A stretch of 50,808 bases of DNA from Gammaproteobacteria bacterium. GTDB taxonomy: Bacteria > Pseudomonadota > Gammaproteobacteria > Pseudomonadales > Azotimanducaceae. Positions 1,700 to 34,398 of this stretch are shown here, in pieces (position 1 is the first letter of the stretch; every line of letters starts with the position of its first letter). Location of the stretch: assembly GCA_003248125.1 (NCBI GenBank), contig QJXZ01000037.1:1-50808 (forward strand), given 5' to 3'. The position numbers and the translations under genes are program-made. Under the pieces are notes generated by a model that was given only the letters and a program-made list of their open reading frames with translations, was not told where the DNA came from and made no database searches.

Positions 1700-2929
1700 T
1701 CACCCCCCAAAGTCGTCGAGCAGGATGTTCTCGGGTTCCACACCGAGGTCTTCGAGCATCTTGAGTACCGCGGCGATCATCGGCGGCGGTCCGCACAAGT
1801 AGTACTCGCAATCCTCGGGGTTCGGGTGATCCTTGAGATAGTGGTCGAACACCACCTGATGGATGAAGCCCGTGTACCCCGTCCAGTTGTCCTCGGGCAA
1901 TGGCTCCGACAGCGCAATGTGCCACTCGAAATTCGAGAACTCCGCCGCGAGCGAGTCGAAGTCCTCCACGTAGAACATCTCCCGCAAGCTGCGTGCGCCG
2001 TACCAGAAGGTCATCTTGTAGGTGTTGTGCTTGCGCTTCAGCTCGTCGAACAACTGTGAGCGCAGCGGCGCCATACCCGCACCGCCGCCGATCCAGACCT
2101 TCTCGTTCGGTGTGTCCTTGATGAAGAACTCACCATATGGGCCAAACACCGTGAGTCGGTCGCCAGGCTTCAAGTTGAAGCAATACGACGACATCTTACC
2201 GGGCGGGAAATTGGTACGTGGCGGTGGTGTCGCAACTCGGATGTTGAACTTCAGTACACCCTTCTCGTCCGGATAGTTCGCCATCGAGTACGCACGGATC
2301 GTTGGCTCGGTCACTTTGCTGTGGTACTGCCACACGTTGAACCGATCCCAGTCGTCGTGAAACTGCTTCTCCACGTCGATCGTCTTGTAGTCCATCTCGT
2401 AGGGTGGGATCTCGAGCTGCACGAAACCGCCGGCGCGGAAGTCGACTTCCTGTCCTTCCGGCAGCTTGAGGACCAATTCTTTGATGAACGTGGCCACGTT
2501 GTGATTGGAGATCACCTCGCAATCCCAACGCTGCACGCCAAATGCATCTTCGGGAATGTGGATCTTGAGGTCTTGCTTGACGGCCACCTGGCACGACAAG
2601 CGCCAGTGGTCGCGAATCTCCCGTCGCGTGAAGTGCCCTTCTTCGGTCGACAGAATCGACCCGCCACCCTCGGTCACCTGGCAGCGACATTGGCCGCACG
2701 TGCCGCCGCCGCCGCAGGCGCTCGACAGGAAGATACCCTTCGACGCCAATGTACCGAGCAACTTGCCGCCGGCGGGTACCGTTACGTGCTTGTGCGGATC
2801 CTCGTTGATCTCGATCGTTATGTCGCCGGTGCTCACCAGGTGCGAGCGCGCATAGAGAATCACCGCCACCAACGACAGCACCGTGACGGTGAACATGACG
2901 ACGCCGAGAATGATTGTGGTATCGAGCAT
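1700..2929 (-). CDS. nqrF: Na+-translocating NADH:quinone reductase subunit F (NADH-binding flavoprotein)
   Basis: Entry subunit of Na+-NQR: it oxidises NADH through FAD and passes electrons to a 2Fe-2S centre, feeding the Na+ pump. 409 residues, normal length. One N-terminal membrane helix (about residues 4-26) is followed by a plant-type ferredoxin domain with Cys72, Cys78, Cys81 and Cys113. Then comes a ferredoxin reductase module with the FAD motif RAYS at 212-215, the NAD-binding loop [11 protein letters not shown] and the late CGPPPM motif. Start ATG with AGGAA upstream. It is the last gene of nqrABCDEF, nine bases after nqrE. The maturation genes often found next to nqrF (nqrM, apbE) are not here; a convergent SDR gene follows instead. 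Confidence 0.98.
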
Positions 2930-2938
2930 GCTTGGTTC

Positions 2939-3550
2939 CTAGATGTCGATGCCGCCGAACGACATGAAACAGAGCGCAATCAAGCCCACCGACATGAACG
3001 TGATGCCCAACCCACGCAACCCATCCGGGACGTCGCTGTACTTGAGCTTTTCCCGCACTCCGGCAAGCGCCGTGATCGCGAGCGCCCAGCCGAGTCCAGC
3101 ACCAACGCCGAACACGGCACTTTCACCAAGCGTGTAATCACGTTCGATCATGAACAGGTGCGCACCGAGGATGGCGCAATTGACCGTAATCAAGGGCAGG
3201 AACACACCGAGCGCGTTGTACAGGAACGGTACATAGCGATCGAGGACCATCTCCAGGATCTGCACGATTGCGGCGATGACACCTATGTAGGCGAGCAAGC
3301 CGATAAAGCTCAAATCGACGTCCGGAAATCCGGCCCAGGACAAGGCCCCTTCACGCAGCAAATGGTTGTAGATCAGGTTGTTGACCGGCGTGGTGATCGC
3401 CAGCACCACCATTACGGCGATTCCGAGGCCGATGGCGGTCTCGATCTTTTTCGAGATGGCGATGAAGGTGCACATGCCCAGGAAGAACGTGAGCGCCATG
3501 TTCTCGATGAACACGGCGCGAATGAGGAGTCCGAGATAGTGCTCCAGCAT
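2939..3550 (-). CDS. nqrE: Na+-translocating NADH:quinone reductase subunit E
   Basis: Integral membrane subunit of Na+-NQR, 203 residues with six hydrophobic helices, homologous to NqrD and to RnfA. NqrD and NqrE together hold an iron centre within the membrane in known structures. The sequence shows the family features [12 protein letters not shown] near the N-terminus and [15 protein letters not shown] in the middle. The ATG start directly follows the nqrD stop (no spacer) and nqrF begins nine bases downstream, so it is read as part of one transcript. Confidence 0.97.
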
Positions 3551-28103: not shown

Positions 28104-30118
28104 AGTACCGAATCGTCATCGCTGTATCGGGCTTTGTACTCGCGCTGGCTAGCGGCGCGCGTGCGACCGAGGTGCGCACCGATGTCGGCCTTCGCGAGCA
28201 ATACCGCGAAGCACTCACGCACCTGCGCGCCGGTCGCCGCACCGAATTCGAACGACTGCGTGAGGGACTCGAGCAGTATGCGCTTTATCCCTACCTCGAC
28301 TACGCAGTGCACCAGCAGCGTCTCGATCGCCTGAAGAAAGAAGAAGTCGGCGCGTTTCGGCAGCGATGGCGCGACACGCCCGTCGCCGACCGGTTGTACC
28401 TGGCCTGGCTCGACCGCCTCGCTGAGCGCGACGATTGGCGTACGTACGTCGACGCATTCGAACCCGGCCAAGATGCGGCACGTACCTGCTACTATCTACG
28501 CGGATTGCTACGCCAAGGCGAAGCACAACTCGCGTTCGATCAGGTTGCGCCCCTCTGGCTCGTGCCGTACTCCCAGCACAAGCGCTGTGATCCTGTCTTC
28601 AAGGCTTGGATCGATGCAGGTCGATTGACCGAGCGCTTGGTCTGGCAGCGACTCGCACTATCGCTGGAAGCGAACGAACGAACGCTCGCCACCTATCTGA
28701 CACGCCTCTTGACGGGACCGCGCCACCGTGAGGCACTGCTCTTCCTGCGCGTCAATCGCAATCCGGGCACGGTGACCCAGCATTCTCTGTTTCGCCGTGA
28801 TAGCAGTCGGATTCGAACCATCGTCGGTCACGGCCTGCGCCGACTCGCCCGCACCGACCCGGAAGCAGCGGCCGAGGCATGGCTGCGTTTCGAAGACGAA
28901 CTTGCTTTCGAGCCGGGTACGGCGCGGCGCATCGATCAGGAAGTGACGCGACTGTTGGCACGCAAAGGCACGCTGATCGACGTGCCCGACCTATCGCCGA
29001 CCGCCGACGGCAGGCACTTCGATACTGCCGAAGCGTTGGTCGTGGCGGCCATTCAGCATGGTGCTTACGAGCGAGCGATTCGCTGGATAGACACGATCGA
29101 TCCCGATCGCGATGGCGACCCACGCTGGCGCTACTGGCTCGGCAGGGCATTGCTCGGTTCGCCCACCACGCTGGCGGCCGGCCGAGACGTGCTCGCGGCG
29201 CTCGCAACGGAGCGCAACTACTACGGATTTCTGGCTGCCGAGCGAATCGGCCGCGAGCCAGTGCTAAATGCCGTGGAGCCAGACGTTGCCGAGAGTGCAC
29301 GCGCGCGTCTCGATCGCGAGCCGGGATTCGCCCGCCTGCGTGAACTCTATGCACTAGACGATCGATTGAATGCCCGTCGCGAGTGGCGCATGGTCGCACC
29401 GCGTCTCGATGCCGAACTATCGGTTGCCGCAGTCGTCGCCATCGCGGAAATGGGTTGGACCGATCTCGCCGTGATCGCGGCTGGCGATGCCGGCATGACC
29501 GACTACCTATCGATACGGTTTCCGCGCCCGTGGCCCAGACAATATGCGCGTGCGGCAAAAGCGACGGCGCTTCCGGCGAGCTTCCTCTACGGGGTAACGA
29601 GGCAAGAGAGCGCGTTCTGGGAGTCGGCCGTGTCGACTGCCGGCGCGCTCGGGCTGATGCAGCTGATGCCGCCTACCGCCGCGCGCACTGCCCGTGCGCT
29701 CGGCCTGCGGTCGCCTTCGCGATCGCAGCTTCTGACCGCGGCCGTGAACATACCGCTCGGTAGCAATCACCTCGCCGCGCTGGTCAAGCGTTATGGTGGT
29801 AATCGAGCACTGGCCGCTGCCGCCTATAACGCCGGCGAGCATCGGGTCGATCGCTGGCTCGACGAGCGACCTTTCGTCGCGATCGATCTCTGGGTCGACA
29901 TGATTCCATTTCTCGAGACCCGCAACTACGTGAAGGGCGTACTCGCGTTCAGCTACATCTATGGCCAACTGCTCGACGACCCGCAACCATTTCTCACCGA
30001 ACGCGAGCGTGGCAGCGGATTTGCAATCGATCACAGTACATCGATCACGTCATCGGCGTTGAATGGCCAATCCAGTAGCTTGCCATCGATATTCAGTACC
30101 GGAATGCGCGTGCCGTAG
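28100..30118 (+). CDS. slt: Soluble lytic murein transglycosylase (Slt type), probable CTG start
   Basis: About 672 residues: periplasmic signal peptide, long alpha-superhelical domain, and C-terminal SLT domain with the catalytic glutamate (about residue 503) in TRQESAFWESAVS, then GALGLMQLMPPTAART and AAAYNAGEHRVDRWL. It cleaves peptidoglycan glycan strands to 1,6-anhydro products. The first ATG/GTG/TTG in frame (GTG at 28172) would leave no signal peptide. The frame opens just after a TAG at 28097 with CTG at 28100, followed by KYRIVIAVSGFVLALASGA, a textbook signal peptide. I therefore set the start at CTG, overlapping the usp stop as CTGA. The last 29 codons overlap the grx gene on the other strand. 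Confidence 0.85.
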   Translation: MKYRIVIAVSGFVLALASGARATEVRTDVGLREQYREALTHLRAGRRTEFERLREGLEQYALYPYLDYAVHQQRLDRLKKEEVGAFRQRWRDTPVADRLYLAWLDRLAERDDWRTYVDAFEPGQDAARTCYYLRGLLRQGEAQLAFDQVAPLWLVPYSQHKRCDPVFKAWIDAGRLTERLVWQRLALSLEANERTLATYLTRLLTGPRHREALLFLRVNRNPGTVTQHSLFRRDSSRIRTIVGHGLRRLARTDPEAAAEAWLRFEDELAFEPGTARRIDQEVTRLLARKGTLIDVPDLSPTADGRHFDTAEALVVAAIQHGAYERAIRWIDTIDPDRDGDPRWRYWLGRALLGSPTTLAAGRDVLAALATERNYYGFLAAERIGREPVLNAVEPDVAESARARLDREPGFARLRELYALDDRLNARREWRMVAPRLDAELSVAAVVAIAEMGWTDLAVIAAGDAGMTDYLSIRFPRPWPRQYARAAKATALPASFLYGVTRQESAFWESAVSTAGALGLMQLMPPTAARTARALGLRSPSRSQLLTAAVNIPLGSNHLAALVKRYGGNRALAAAAYNAGEHRVDRWLDERPFVAIDLWVDMIPFLETRNYVKGVLAFSYIYGQLLDDPQPFLTERERGSGFAIDHSTSITSSALNGQSSSLPSIFSTGMRVP

Positions 30119-30258
30119 CGGCCGAGCAAGCACTCGTCATCCGCAATGTCGACGACCCGCACAGTGCACCGTGCCAGTTCTGGCATACTGCGAAGCAGAC
30201 GTTCGGCACGCTCGCACAGTTCGCAGGCGGCAGTGGAATAGAGCGTAATCGTGGTCAT
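30031..30258 (-). CDS. Glutaredoxin-like thioredoxin-fold protein
   Basis: 75 residues, a compact thioredoxin fold of the DUF836/glutaredoxin-like type. The redox motif is CELC near the N-terminus (TLYSTAACELCERAERLL), and RIPVLNIDGKLLDWPF holds the cis-proline. Expected role is a small cytoplasmic dithiol oxidoreductase; partner unknown. ATG start at 30258. The 3' end overlaps the C-terminal codons of slt by 88 bases on the opposite strand. Confidence 0.88.
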   Translation of the reverse strand: MTTITLYSTAACELCERAERLLRSMPELARCTVRVVDIADDECLLGRYGTRIPVLNIDGKLLDWPFNADDVIDVL

Positions 30259-30284: not shown

Positions 30285-31226
30285 ATGATCCCACGGATGC
30301 AAACCTCTAGATTCGCATCCCCAGACGTTGCAACGCGTTATCCCCTAAAGGTAGTGGGCGAATTGGAGTGGCGCCGCGTCGACGGTGGCCATCTCGGCAC
30401 TATCGCGCTGCCCCCACTTGCACCCGACGACATCGTAGTACCGAGTCTCGCGTTCGACGGCACCGATCACGGCCACCGATTCGAACTTGCGGTTGGCGCC
30501 ACCCGCGTGGCACTGGATCCCATCATGGCGCCTGCCTGCCGAGCACCGATGGCCACCTCGCCGTTCAAGTCGCACATCGACTACTTCTCGTCGGACATCG
30601 TTTGCCGAGACGCGGAACTTAGCGTGTTCGTTACTGGCAACACGGCACCGGAACGTTACTTGCTCGCGGTGAGCATACGACCACGCGTACTCGAGCCGAA
30701 TGCAGGGCACTGCATCACGCCGCGGCTGTGTGTTGCGCCTCTCTCACAGCTCACCGCACCGCGCGCCATCCGCCGTCGTATTTGCTCACCAGCGTGCATC
30801 GCAATGGTGACGCATCACTTGGGCACCGCCACGTCGCTCGCAACGACCGTGGCGGATTGCACGCACGAGGCGACTGGCATCTACGGCGTGTGGCCACTCG
30901 CAATTCGCTCGGCGGCGCGCGCCGGTGTAATCGGCGCAGTGGAAGCAATCGATAGTCTCGACACCATCGCCCCGTTTCTGATGCGCGACCTACCAGTGGT
31001 GGCAAGCATTCGATTCGAACGCGGGGGACTCGAGGGTTCGCCGCTAGAACGAACACACGGACACCTAGTGGTGGTCACGGGGCTCGACCAGAGTGTGGTG
31101 CACGTCAATGATCCCGCTGCCAAAGATGCAGCCGAAGTGCCCCGCACCTATCGTCGCGACCAATTCGCAGCCGCTTGGCTGCGTGAGCGGGGCGCCGCGT
31201 ATCTGTTTGCTGAGCGAAAGCAGTGA
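30285..31226 (+). CDS. Peptidase C39-like (papain-fold) family protein
   Basis: 313 residues. The N-terminal 150 residues form a beta-rich region without a signal peptide. The C-terminal part is a C39-like cysteine protease domain: Cys167 in ICSPACIAMV, His260 in RTHGHLVVVTGL and Asp276 in VHVNDPAA form the expected catalytic triad. Such single-domain C39 proteins are common in actinobacteria and some proteobacteria with no ABC transporter attached, as here. Substrate unknown. It starts a run with a small membrane protein (TGATG junction), a GNAT enzyme and a Ddl-type ligase, suggesting a peptide or murein-peptide task. An alternative start is the ATG at 30297. Confidence 0.82.
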   Translation: MIPRMQTSRFASPDVATRYPLKVVGELEWRRVDGGHLGTIALPPLAPDDIVVPSLAFDGTDHGHRFELAVGATRVALDPIMAPACRAPMATSPFKSHIDYFSSDIVCRDAELSVFVTGNTAPERYLLAVSIRPRVLEPNAGHCITPRLCVAPLSQLTAPRAIRRRICSPACIAMVTHHLGTATSLATTVADCTHEATGIYGVWPLAIRSAARAGVIGAVEAIDSLDTIAPFLMRDLPVVASIRFERGGLEGSPLERTHGHLVVVTGLDQSVVHVNDPAAKDAAEVPRTYRRDQFAAAWLRERGAAYLFAERKQ

Positions 31227-31471
31227 TGCGCGGCCGAGCGGGACAGCTTTTGGTGCGCTGTCTGCTGCTCAGCGTCGCGTTCGCGCTAACCACGCTTGCC
31301 CTGGCGCAATGGCAAGCGATCGGCTTTTCGTGGCACGACGTGTGGCCACTAGCAGGCGACTTCCACCTCCATCCGGTGCATCTGTTGGTGATCGGGGTTG
31401 CGATGATCCCGCCGACCGTTTGGGAAATTTTCCTCTTGGATTCCGGACGCTTGAACCGTGAGTCGCGCTGA
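31226..31471 (+). CDS. Small hypothetical membrane protein
   Basis: 81 residues from the ATG that shares its A with the preceding TGA (TGATG); a GTG one codon earlier is equally possible. Two hydrophobic segments (about 7-27 and 50-68) flank a DVWPLAGDFHLHPVHL loop. The C-terminus is polar. No family recognised. It overlaps the next gene by 14 bases, so it belongs to the protease/GNAT/ligase unit and may anchor or serve that set. Confidence 0.7.
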   Translation: MRGRAGQLLVRCLLLSVAFALTTLALAQWQAIGFSWHDVWPLAGDFHLHPVHLLVIGVAMIPPTVWEIFLLDSGRLNRESR

Positions 31472-32003
31472 GGTCTACCTGCGCGGCGTGACCGCGAGCG
31501 ATCGCCAGGAGTTCCTGGAGCTAATGCGCGCCAGTCGCGCACTGCACGCCCCATGGATCACGCCGCCGACTTCGGATCGCACCTTCGCCCAGTATTTGGC
31601 GCGCACGCAGTCCGACGACCACCGCGGCATGCTCGTTTGCCGACGCAGCGACGGTGCAATCGTCGGCGTGATCAACATCAATGGCATCGTCCGCGGCACC
31701 TTCCTGAGCGCATCGCTTGGGTACTACGTCGGTGCCCCGTATACGGGTCATGGCTACATGACCGAAGGCTTGCGGCAAACGATCAAGCACGCGTTCGGCG
31801 ACCTCGGTCTGCACCGCCTGGAGGCGAACATCCAACCGGACAATCTTCGTTCGCGAGCACTGGTCGCCAGATGTGGATTCGTCAACGAGGGGCTCGCCAA
31901 GCGGTTTCTCTACATCGACGGTGCCTGGCGCGACCACGAGCGCTGGGCGATGTACGACGAACGCGCTACATTGGCAGCCTCCAAGACTCGCTACCACGGA
32001 TGA
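31458..32003 (+). CDS. GNAT family N-acetyltransferase (RimJ/RimL type)
   Basis: 181 residues, one GNAT domain. Family features: LRGVTASDRQEFLELMRASR at the N-terminus, the GYYVGAPYTGHGYMTEGLRQ acetyl-CoA loop (pattern Q/RxxGxG/A in the form APYTGHGYM), LHRLEANIQPDNLRSRALVARCGF and FLYIDGAWRDHERWAM at the end. RimJ/L-like enzymes acetylate protein N-termini or small amines; the substrate here is unknown. GTG start inside the preceding gene; the stop overlaps the next ATG (ATGA). Confidence 0.9.
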   Translation: MSRAEVYLRGVTASDRQEFLELMRASRALHAPWITPPTSDRTFAQYLARTQSDDHRGMLVCRRSDGAIVGVININGIVRGTFLSASLGYYVGAPYTGHGYMTEGLRQTIKHAFGDLGLHRLEANIQPDNLRSRALVARCGFVNEGLAKRFLYIDGAWRDHERWAMYDERATLAASKTRYHG

Positions 32004-32962
32004 CGAACATGGCGCTCGAGAAAGTCGCCGTGATTGCCGGTGGCCCCTCGCGCGAGGCGTCTGTATCGCGCTCTTCGGCCGCCGAGGTAGTGAAGGCGCT
32101 CGAACACGAACGTACCGAGGTCATTCTGCTCGAGCTCGACGGCAGTTTGACGGAACGACTCGTCGACATGCGACCTCATGCCGTGTTTCCGGTGTTGCAC
32201 GGCCCGCCCGGAGAAGACGGTACCGTGCAGGGTTATCTCGAAATCCTCGGTCTGCCATACGTGGGCAGCGGCGTGCATGCGAGCGCGACCGCGATGGACA
32301 AAAGCTTGGCAAAGGCCGTGTTCGCGCGCGCTGGGCTACCCGTGTGCGACGATCTCGTATTCCCGGCCGGCACGTCACCGCAGGCGGCGGCACGCCGCAT
32401 TCAATCGCGCTTCGGCGACCGTGTTGTCGTCAAACCACTTTGCCAAGGTTCGGCCATCGGCGTGACACCGGTGATGAACGGCGGCGACTTGGAAGCTCCG
32501 CTCGAGCTCGCATTCGAAATGGGTGGCGGCGTGCTCGTGGAACCCTTCGTCCTCGGCATGGAAGCCACGGTCGGTGTGCTCGATTTGGAAGGCCAGGCAG
32601 CGCGCGCATTTCCACCCATCGAGATTCGCACACCCGCCGGCACGTGGTACGACTTCGAACACCGCTACACGGCCGGCGAGAGCGACCACATCATTCCCGC
32701 ACGAGTGTCGGCAGCGGTCGCATCACGCCTCGAACGCATCGCCATCGATGCGCACCAATCGCTAGGCTGTCGCGATCTCTCGCGCGCAGATTTCATCGTC
32801 AAAGACGACGGCGAGATCGTGTTGCTCGAGATCAACACGCTCCCTGGCATGACGCCGACCAGCCTCTATCCGGACGGCGCCAAAGCGATCGGCATCGGCT
32901 TCGCAGACCTCATGCGGCAACTGGTCGCCAGCGCGCGGCGACGTGGGCCACCGCGTCCTTAG
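32000..32962 (+). CDS. ddl: D-alanine--D-alanine ligase (Ddl-type ATP-grasp)
   Basis: 320 residues. It has the Ddl landmarks aligned to E. coli DdlB by eye: Glu of GGPSRE (Glu15), Ser of QGSAIGV (Ser150), Tyr in FEHRYTAG (Tyr216), Arg/Asp in SRADFIV (Arg255/Asp257), Glu/Asn in LLEINTLPGMT (Glu270/Asn272) and Ser/Leu of TPTSLYP (Ser281/Leu282). It is expected to join two D-alanines with ATP for murein precursors. It is not beside murC/ftsQ as ddlB often is, but behind a GNAT gene with an ATGA overlap, so it may be an extra ligase or make a variant dipeptide. A second ATG at 32009 is an alternative start. Confidence 0.88.
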   Translation: MTNMALEKVAVIAGGPSREASVSRSSAAEVVKALEHERTEVILLELDGSLTERLVDMRPHAVFPVLHGPPGEDGTVQGYLEILGLPYVGSGVHASATAMDKSLAKAVFARAGLPVCDDLVFPAGTSPQAAARRIQSRFGDRVVVKPLCQGSAIGVTPVMNGGDLEAPLELAFEMGGGVLVEPFVLGMEATVGVLDLEGQAARAFPPIEIRTPAGTWYDFEHRYTAGESDHIIPARVSAAVASRLERIAIDAHQSLGCRDLSRADFIVKDDGEIVLLEINTLPGMTPTSLYPDGAKAIGIGFADLMRQLVASARRRGPPRP

Positions 32963-32992: not shown

Positions 32993-34294
32993 CTACAGAT
33001 CGTAGCCTCGCTCGTTGTGCAGCGCGATATCTAGGCCTTCCATCTCTTCTTCTGCAGAGACCCTGAGGGGCGTAATGGCACCCACGATCTTGAGCAGCAC
33101 CCAAGTGACCACCATCGTATAGACGAGGCCGCTGAACGCGCCGATTGCCTGCACGCCGAGCTGCTCCGCGATGACGATGTCTTCTTGGCCGCTGAACACG
33201 CCCAGCGCGCTGCTCGCGAACACACCGGTCAGAATCGTGCCCAGCAATCCACCGACACCGTGTACTGGGAATACGTCGAGCGAATCGTCGATCTTCAACA
33301 CGCGCTTCATGTAGTTGGTGGCGATGAAGCAGAGTAAGCCGGCGGCAATGCCGATCAACAGCGCGCCAGCCGGACCAACGAACCCGGAAGCGGGCGTGAT
33401 GGTGCCAAGGCCCGCCACCATGCCGGTGACCGCACCCAATGCGCTCGGCTTGTCGTAGCGAATCCACTCCGCGCACATCCACGTGAATGCGCCGGCGGCC
33501 GCACTGATGTGGGTCACCAACATGGCCATCGCGGCATCGCCGTTGGATGCCAATGCACTACCGCCGTTGAAGCCGAACCAGCCGACCCAAAGCATGCCCG
33601 CCCCCGCGACGGTGAGCGTCATGTTGTGCGGCAGCATCGGCGTCGACGGGAAGCCGCTGCGTGAGCCGAGTACCAAGGCTGCGGTCAACGCGCCGGCACC
33701 GGCCGTGATGTGCACCACGATGCCACCCGCGAAATCCTTGACGCCCAACTCGCCAAGCCATCCACCGCCCCATACCCAATGGCAGACGGGCACGTAGACC
33801 GCCAGCAACCAAAGCGCCGAGAACCACAGCACCGCCGAAAACCGCATGCGTTCGGCGAAGCCGCCAACGACCAGCGCCGGCGTAATGATCGCGAAGGTCA
33901 ATTGGAACAGCGCGAATGCGCTCTCCGGCACGCTGCCGGACACCGTGTCCTCGGCGACACCGGCGAACAGCACGTTCGATAGGCCGCCGATAAAGGCGTT
34001 GCCTTCGGAGAAGGCGAGGCTATAACCCCCTACCAGCCACAGCATGGTCACGAGGCACGTGATCGCGAAGCACTGCATCAAGACGCTCAGCACGTTCTTG
34101 GTGCGCACCAGACCGCCATAGAACAGCGACAGACCGGGAATGGTCATGAACAGCACGAGCGCGGTGGCCGTGAGGATCCAAGCGGTGTCGCCTTCGACGA
34201 GTTCGCCGCCGTCCGCCTGTGCCCCGAACGCGATTACGGCGAGTGCTGCTGCCAGCATACCCTGCCCCACGAATGACCTGTGCCTACCTCTCAT
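32993..34294 (-). CDS. amtB: Ammonium transporter
   Basis: 433 residues from the ATG at 34294, which has a very strong GGAGGAG upstream. A signal peptide (about 1-25, ending FGAQADGG) is followed by about eleven helices. The pore histidine pair lies in VVHITAGAGAL and FPVHGVGGLLGTIL, and the family segments TIPGLSLFYGGLVR and GWFGFNGGSAL are clear. The C-terminal ISL-like tail (DIALHNERGYDL), where GlnK would dock, is kept. AmtB moves NH3/NH4+ into the cell at low ammonium. The usual glnK partner is not next to it. A GC-rich hairpin lies in its leader (34323-34339). Confidence 0.96.
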   Translation of the reverse strand: MRGRHRSFVGQGMLAAALAVIAFGAQADGGELVEGDTAWILTATALVLFMTIPGLSLFYGGLVRTKNVLSVLMQCFAITCLVTMLWLVGGYSLAFSEGNAFIGGLSNVLFAGVAEDTVSGSVPESAFALFQLTFAIITPALVVGGFAERMRFSAVLWFSALWLLAVYVPVCHWVWGGGWLGELGVKDFAGGIVVHITAGAGALTAALVLGSRSGFPSTPMLPHNMTLTVAGAGMLWVGWFGFNGGSALASNGDAAMAMLVTHISAAAGAFTWMCAEWIRYDKPSALGAVTGMVAGLGTITPASGFVGPAGALLIGIAAGLLCFIATNYMKRVLKIDDSLDVFPVHGVGGLLGTILTGVFASSALGVFSGQEDIVIAEQLGVQAIGAFSGLVYTMVVTWVLLKIVGAITPLRVSAEEEMEGLDIALHNERGYDL

Positions 34295-34322
34295 GCGTGC
34301 CTCCTCCAGTATTGTTCGATGG

Positions 34323-34339
34323 TCGCGCGCGGCGCGCGA
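34323..34339 (-). promoter_or_regulatory. GC-rich inverted repeat in the amtB leader
   Basis: TCGCGCG-C/G-rich 3-base loop-CGCGCGA, 7-bp perfect arms, 28 bases before the amtB ATG and upstream of its strong Shine-Dalgarno. No sigma-54 (-24/-12) element was convincing in the 104-base spacer to pyrD. Confidence 0.3.
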
Positions 34340-34398
34340 TGACACGAATTCTCGTTGGTGCACGAAGCGTATAGCTTCACCGCGATTGGGGCCACACT

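Follow-up and report, generated by a model that had tools for sequence, protein, structure and literature searches.

Contig QJXZ01000037.1 (assembly GCA_003248125.1), from a gammaproteobacterium of the family Azotimanducaceae (order Pseudomonadales), was analyzed over 50,808 nucleotides, positions 1 to 50,808 of the forward strand, and this whole stretch is called the window here. At positions 30285 to 32962 it carries four plus-strand genes, for a C39-fold peptidase, a small membrane protein (SMP), a GNAT acetyltransferase, and a ligase of the D-alanine--D-alanine ligase (Ddl) kind. The locus raises the question of whether the ligase is a working part of a peptide-making or peptide-modifying set, as the original prediction proposed, or a cell wall enzyme that shares its transcript with genes of another function. 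We favor, with moderate confidence, the reading that a housekeeping Ddl is co-expressed with a lineage-specific peptide-processing module, cytosolic and membrane-associated, and that the ligase is not a step of this module. The elements of the set are as follows.

30285..31226, plus strand: papain-like peptidase of the C39 fold, whose N-terminal domain is rich in beta structure (PF13529, invariant triad, predicted fold)
31226..31471 (from the ATG at 31226) or from the GTG at 31223, plus strand: small protein with two predicted transmembrane segments, the SMP (hydropathy), whose homologues sit between the C39 and GNAT genes in relatives
31458..32003, plus strand: RimJ/MccE-like GNAT N-acetyltransferase (PF13302, E 1.9e-25; profile matches to 3igr and 3r95)
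32000..32003, plus strand: ATGA junction of the GNAT and Ddl genes, the site of an S9 peptidase gene in many relatives
32000..32962, plus strand: Ddl (TIGR01205 and NF002378 over cut-off; own clade)

The coordinates and junctions first described for these genes were confirmed: the C39 and SMP genes meet at TGATG (or, with the GTG at 31223 as the SMP start codon, overlap by 4 bases), the SMP and GNAT genes overlap by 14 bases, and the GNAT and Ddl genes meet at ATGA. Judging from these overlaps, the four genes are probably carried on one message. Moreover, their association is not a chance one, because other genomes show the same order, with proteins that are about 30–69% identical.

The ligase is most likely the housekeeping D-Ala-D-Ala ligase of the organism, an activity to which its motifs and its sole copy point. 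Both the N- and the C-terminal Ddl domains are present (PF01820, 76.4 with a cut-off of 34.6; PF07478, 152 with a cut-off of 24), and the top-scoring models are all Ddl models (304.8, 273.6, and 269.9), including NF002378 (304.8, cut-off 243) and TIGR01205 (269.9, cut-off 245.65). A resistance-type Ddl was considered and rejected, the best Van model among the matches listed being VanG, which scores 205 where the cut-off is 495. The catalytic residues of the E. coli DdlB enzyme are E15, S150, Y216, R255, E270, N272, and S281, with a Lys at position 215. When the window Ddl is aligned to 1iov, all the listed catalytic residues are retained and the K215 position is occupied by Arg. The GNAT and ATP-grasp motifs had been described as intact, and the analysis supports this. 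In a TIGR01205 search of the window's genome, one of the 14 matches exceeds the cut-off, and it is the window Ddl (the next one, on contig C130, reaches 123.5 against 245.65); PF07478 alone passes its cut-off at nine places, and the Ddl family model is passed by the window gene only. The assembly has a completeness of 100, a contamination of 4.55, and 383 contigs, and the claim of a sole Ddl holds as far as it shows. As the only Ddl over the cut-off, the window Ddl must serve the cell wall. The earlier suggestion of an extra Ddl with passengers is therefore abandoned, and the murC-ftsQ region, named beforehand as the place to look for a second ddl, does not hold one: on contig C6, murC runs directly into ftsQ.

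The same genome holds a further pair of genes at locus L002 (G000:C130), on the minus strand at 1453–2487 and 2484–3536, where a Ddl-like ATP-grasp gene below cut-off overlaps by 4 bases that of a putative zinc peptidase (Peptidase_Mx, 25.8 with a cut-off of 27). As a candidate for a peptide-modifying ATP-grasp pair, it may be stronger than the window Ddl.

The location of the ligase was compared in 97 genomes, of which 61 belong to the window's family (f1) and 36 are outgroups that represent other families within its order. At 1e-20, a Ddl match is found in 93 of them, and FtsQ is found in 92. Within the family, 56 of the 61 genomes have one Ddl match, G041 shows the match as two partial pieces, each on a contig of its own, and G020, G040, G047, and G057 have none. 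Identity to the window Ddl is 49–66% inside the family and 31–40% outside it, with the exception of a second copy in the outgroup genome G067 (49%). In tables compared by hand, Ddl adjoins ftsQ in 33 of the 36 outgroups (the exceptions being G075, G088, and G096) and in none of the 53 family genomes with both matches. Also, among 30 FtsQ loci that were read, murC is followed by ftsQ without Ddl in 10/10 family loci and 1/20 outgroup loci, the Ddl gene being there in the other 19 outgroup loci.

A tree of 88 Ddl sequences, with 51 rows from the family and 37 from the outgroups, agrees with this distribution. The ten family genomes outside it are G018 and G041 (cut by contig ends), the four without a match, and G027, G060, G014, and G022. 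All 51 family rows form one clade together with the second copy of G067 (support 100/99), whereas 33 outgroup rows, including the dcw copy of G067, form a second clade (100/97), and the three outgroup exceptions named above fall outside both. The window Ddl is not a DdlB of the dcw type on either count, since it neither lies between murC and ftsQ nor falls into the clade of the order's dcw Ddls. A residue signature follows the same division: the position of Lys215 is Arg in 49/49 family rows in which the motif was found (it was missed in 2 of the 51) and in the second copy of G067, which is the sole Arg among 33 outgroup rows; the other 32 outgroup rows with the motif have Lys (missed in 4 of the 37). 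From the tree, the synteny, and the copy number, the dcw ddl is gone from the family, and a Ddl of a different clade presumably serves in its place from another locus. The family thus either gained this Ddl or retained it out of two, the dcw copy being lost. In G067, a dcw Ddl and a HTCC2089-type Ddl occur in one genome (L221, 6083–7084, and L222, 4997–5890), which makes it a natural test case for a division of labor between the two Ddl types. Regarding the identity of the family, among the best 80 of 550 GNAT loci, 36 with C39 or Ddl belong to metagenome-assembled genomes labelled Gammaproteobacteria, Pseudomonadales, HTCC2089, or K189A clade, and the NCBI taxonomy places HTCC2089 within the K189A clade of the OMG group. 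The family with the displaced Ddl corresponds to K189A/HTCC2089-type gammaproteobacteria, known mainly from environmental DNA.

The other genes of the set follow a different distribution. C39 is found in 36 of the 61 family genomes and in none of the 36 outgroups. Conservation of the neighborhood had been proposed as a test, and it was found: GNAT adjoins C39 in 28 of 30 loci, the window counted, and an S9 peptidase gene is present in 29 of 35 C39-bearing regions. The survey of locus patterns took a single region from each of 56 family genomes (G000, which is the window's own, G020, G027, G040, and G057 lie outside it), with gene presence taken from tblastn, so that a diverged SMP may escape and some regions stop at contig ends. 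The pattern C39-SMP-GNAT-S9-Ddl occurs in 18 regions, Ddl alone in 14, C39-GNAT-S9-Ddl in seven, GNAT-S9-Ddl in four, the pattern of the window (C39-SMP-GNAT-Ddl) in four, C39-S9-Ddl and S9-Ddl in two each, and five others once each. The common gene order, with members missing here and there, is TopA-USP-SLT-Grx-C39-SMP-GNAT-S9-Ddl-Amt-PyrD-MoxR, and a cassette private to the window's genome is ruled out, the surrounding order being common to its relatives. Of the two observations named beforehand as speaking against the set, a neighborhood restricted to this genome is contradicted; of the second, the part about a single Ddl in the genome holds as far as the 383 contigs show.

Two kinds of loci separate the ligase from its neighbors. 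Nine of the 14 regions with Ddl alone also carry the flanking SLT or Grx genes (G001, G014, G022, G037, G045, G050, G051, G053, and G060). Moreover, both G044 and G013 carry another C39-S9 pair at a second site, where the stretch that was read contains neither GNAT nor SMP nor Ddl; one of these pairs (L086) overlaps by 4 bases and the other (L087) starts at a contig end. At the ddl locus of the same two genomes, C39 and S9 also overlap by 4 bases, with no GNAT, and G006 has a lone second C39 (L088). Because Ddl stays at the locus without the module genes and C39-S9 pairs occur away from it, the Ddl does not count as dedicated to the module. On balance, we consider the two separable and the module a separate, optional unit.

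Regarding the parts of the module, the C39 protein is a 313-residue open reading frame without transporter domains, which matches PF13529 (E 1.7e-11, 45.3 bits, cut-off 24) and stays under the cut-off for the C39 family of bacteriocin exporters (PF03412, 20.3 with a cut-off of 22). The protease triad, described as intact, is so throughout its relatives: Cys167, His260, and Asp276 are invariant in 34/34 and 25/25 aligned sequences, the window's counted, in two sets that share some genomes. In the AlphaFold model, a confident one (predicted local distance difference test score, pLDDT, of 94.3), the catalytic half resembles the peptidase domains of PCAT1 (6mpz; Z 18.4, root-mean-square deviation 1.8 over 134 residues), ComA (3k8u; Z 17.0), and PeiR (Z 16.5). 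A Foldseek search with the model gave three matches under 1e-3, two to PeiR entries and one to a C39-like peptidase. Beta structure is abundant in the N-terminal half, for which the whole-model search gave weak matches. The protein has no hydrophobic segment, and among 37 C39 translations from relatives, partial ones included, there is no such segment close to the start of any. In a wider sample, C39 matches at 1e-15 occur in two of 398 genomes drawn from the phylum, one being the window's own. The other match, a distant relative in another family of the class (G206; L299, 161–2190), follows with a 4-base overlap the gene of EpmB, of EF-P beta-lysylation. C39 relatives on Deinococcus plasmids (L294, L295, L300, and L301) have copper- or heavy-metal genes around them, and M23 or amidase genes adjoin two of these four.

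By hydropathy, the SMP has two hydrophobic segments, and in one relative (G036, L081) it is fused with GNAT in a single 304-residue protein. This fusion speaks for an association of the two proteins and for a GNAT that is able to attach to the membrane. The acetyltransferase is of the Acetyltransf_3 type, with 29 invariant columns over 33 sequences; the family profile matches the RimJ-type structure 3igr (E 7.9e-26) and MccE (3r95, E 3.1e-10), and the protein stays under the RimJ equivalog cut-off (NF008072, 87.8 against 190).

The S9 peptidase of many relatives, 620–690 residues long (PF00326, E 1.8e-49), is encoded between GNAT and Ddl; in 18 of 25 loci, its gene has a 4-base overlap with that of the GNAT. 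Its Ser motif (GGSAGG or GSSAGG) is present in 29/29 and 26/26 full-length copies of two overlapping sets, in which looser patterns find the Asp in 25/29 and 22/26 and the His in 17/29 and 23/26. The S9 of one relative matches solved S9 peptidases over nearly its whole length, namely 7c72 (E 7.9e-124) and 3azo/3azp (3azo, E 1e-113); the latter is presumably a puromycin hydrolase, the label in the structure search reading aminopeptidase. No S9 of this kind was found in the window's genome at 1e-80, and a move of the gene to another place in this genome was rejected, the best paralogue matching at 35% in the C-terminal part only. Across the comparison sample, S9 is present in 46 of the 61 family genomes and 8 of the 36 outgroups, and not always at the ddl locus. 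These outgroup copies, together with those lying away from the ddl locus in some family members, rule out the S9 as a family-specific partner. In several Streptomyces (L150, L171, L180, L182, L184, L191, and L198), a GNAT relative and an S9 of this kind are no more than about 6 kb apart. The intervening genes differ among the three loci read, for example an S66-like one below cut-off in L150 and a phosphopantetheinyl transferase in L171, and for this reason the proximity is only a lead.

The flanks of the set, which many relatives retain, comprise the following genes.

28172..30118, plus strand: SLT soluble lytic murein transglycosylase, left flank (PF01464, E 1.3e-26; PF14718, E 7.4e-12; synteny)
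30031..30258, minus strand: glutaredoxin-like (Grx) protein, antisense between SLT and the operon and adjoining C39 in most loci read (PF05768, E 7.5e-15)
32993..34363, minus strand: Amt ammonium transporter, right flank (PF00909, E 4.4e-115; synteny)

The Grx-like gene runs antisense across the end of the SLT gene. Where it is found in C39-bearing regions, its strand is opposite to that of C39, and in the nine module-less regions it is the same as that of Ddl. Its inversion may mark the arrival or the loss of the module.

How the module would work can be proposed from its families, since GNATs of the RimJ/MccE kind acetylate amines, and C39 and S9 enzymes cut peptide or aminoacyl bonds. The two-segment protein would hold the GNAT, and perhaps the peptidases too, on the cytoplasmic side of the membrane. 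The GNAT would acetylate the amines of incoming peptides or aminoacyl compounds, C39 and S9 would cleave peptide or aminoacyl bonds, and the products would be recycled or made harmless. A cytosolic site at the membrane is suggested by the C39 sequence, which has no export segment, by its two-segment neighbor, and by the single SMP-GNAT fusion. Several observations weigh against the favored reading of a separate module. The nine module-less relatives are not independent and may reflect one event, because they largely belong to one clade: the six that are in the tree (6/6) share one 13-row clade (99/92), and the other three are in genera of that clade. Also, in 31 of 35 C39-bearing regions the Ddl gene comes after the module on the same strand (in G004 with an additional gene between S9 and Ddl), and a functional link between Ddl and module would give the same pattern. 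In G034, Ddl is on the other strand. Moreover, among the best 80 GNAT loci (of 550 confirmed, in named genomes), 44, largely from Actinomycetota, have neither C39 nor Ddl nearby, compared with 36 that have either. Finally, the acetylate-and-cleave scheme is incomplete in the window, which has no S9.

Three other explanations were weighed. In the first form of the idea, the set makes, acetylates, and trims a D-dipeptide, the Ddl supplying the dipeptide, the GNAT the acetyl group, and C39 the cut. The GNAT/Ddl overlap in the window and an order retained in many relatives agree with such dedicated synthesis; however, we hold it to be very improbable, because the only Ddl over the cut-off must serve the cell wall, Ddl persists without the module, and C39-S9 pairs exist away from Ddl. 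A recycling of murein peptides, in which SLT frees muropeptides, C39 (and S9) cut imported stem peptides, the product is blocked or marked by the GNAT, and Ddl links the freed D-Ala again, has more in its favor and yet seems unlikely to us. In many relatives, SLT and Ddl flank the module; the folds nearest to that of the C39 domain include PeiR, which is an endoisopeptidase of pseudomurein; and two of the Deinococcus plasmid relatives adjoin M23 or amidase genes. In contrast, nine relatives keep SLT or Grx together with Ddl and have no module, the C39 has no hydrophobic segment for export, its best fold matches are leader-peptide peptidases, and the window's genome has Mpl, which belongs to ordinary murein recycling. 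Such hydrolases are also missing from the two other Deinococcus regions and from one Haladaptatus region (one Nonomuraea region carried no annotation).

A slightly lower probability is given to a detoxification of aminoacyl-nucleoside or peptide antibiotics, in which, by analogy with the microcin C immunity provided by MccE and MccF, the GNAT would acetylate the alpha-amine and S9 or C39 would hydrolyze the amide. The GNAT profile matches MccE, although it fits RimJ better, and the S9 is close to the presumed puromycin hydrolase 3azo/3azp, although the window has no such gene. A PADLOC search of the four proteins (C39, SMP, GNAT, and Ddl) found no known defense system. Aminoacyl adenylates are acetylated by MccE/RimL and cleaved by MccF, according to PMC3817062, and puromycin is inactivated by the acetyltransferase PAC, according to PMC11641026. 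However, in the latter paper the partner hydrolase NapH strips the acetyl group again outside the cell and re-activates puromycin, and for this reason the PAC-NapH pair, as described there, is not a double inactivation.

The preferred reading, a housekeeping Ddl beside a separate module, brings together parts that are each of a known kind. Compared with the dcw Ddl of the murC-ddlB-ftsQ arrangement, the window Ddl has the same domains and catalytic motifs but differs in its clade, in its Arg for Lys in the YDxxxKY motif, and in its location outside dcw. With the exporter C39s (PCAT1, ComA) and PF13529 proteins, the window C39 shares catalytic residues and a predicted fold, whereas it has no ABC transporter domain and has an extra N-terminal beta-rich domain. 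The GNAT shares the Acetyltransf_3 domain and the profile matches of RimJ/RimL/MccE enzymes but is below the RimJ equivalog level and adjoins a two-segment membrane protein, to which that of a relative is fused once. The S9 peptidases 7c72 and 3azo/3azp have their counterpart in relatives and not in the window. A MccE/MccF-like immunity pair would combine a GNAT with a hydrolase that acts on the same compound; GNAT and S9 genes are neighbors in many relatives, and the window has no S9. Neighborhoods of an ATP-grasp enzyme, a GNAT, and a papain-fold peptidase have reportedly been described by Iyer, Aravind, and colleagues; the three enzyme kinds are the same, but here the ligase is the sole Ddl, separable and not dedicated to the cassette. 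A search of open-licence PMC papers found no literature on the C39-SMP-GNAT-S9-Ddl gene set. The new part is the association of the genes and the family-wide displacement of Ddl.

As a bolder suggestion, to which we give a little less weight than to detoxification, C39-SMP-GNAT-S9 could be an undescribed membrane-tethered machine that acetylates and cleaves, clearing or recycling peptides or aminoacyl-nucleosides, and that would be tied to the supply of cell wall precursors through a polycistronic message with the relocated ddl. For the biology of the family, the locus provides a defined, testable five-gene neighborhood for a GNAT and two peptidases. Moreover, throughout the sampled family, an essential enzyme that is a drug target has been swapped for one of another clade and moved out of the classical conserved cluster, and a residue signature marks the swap.

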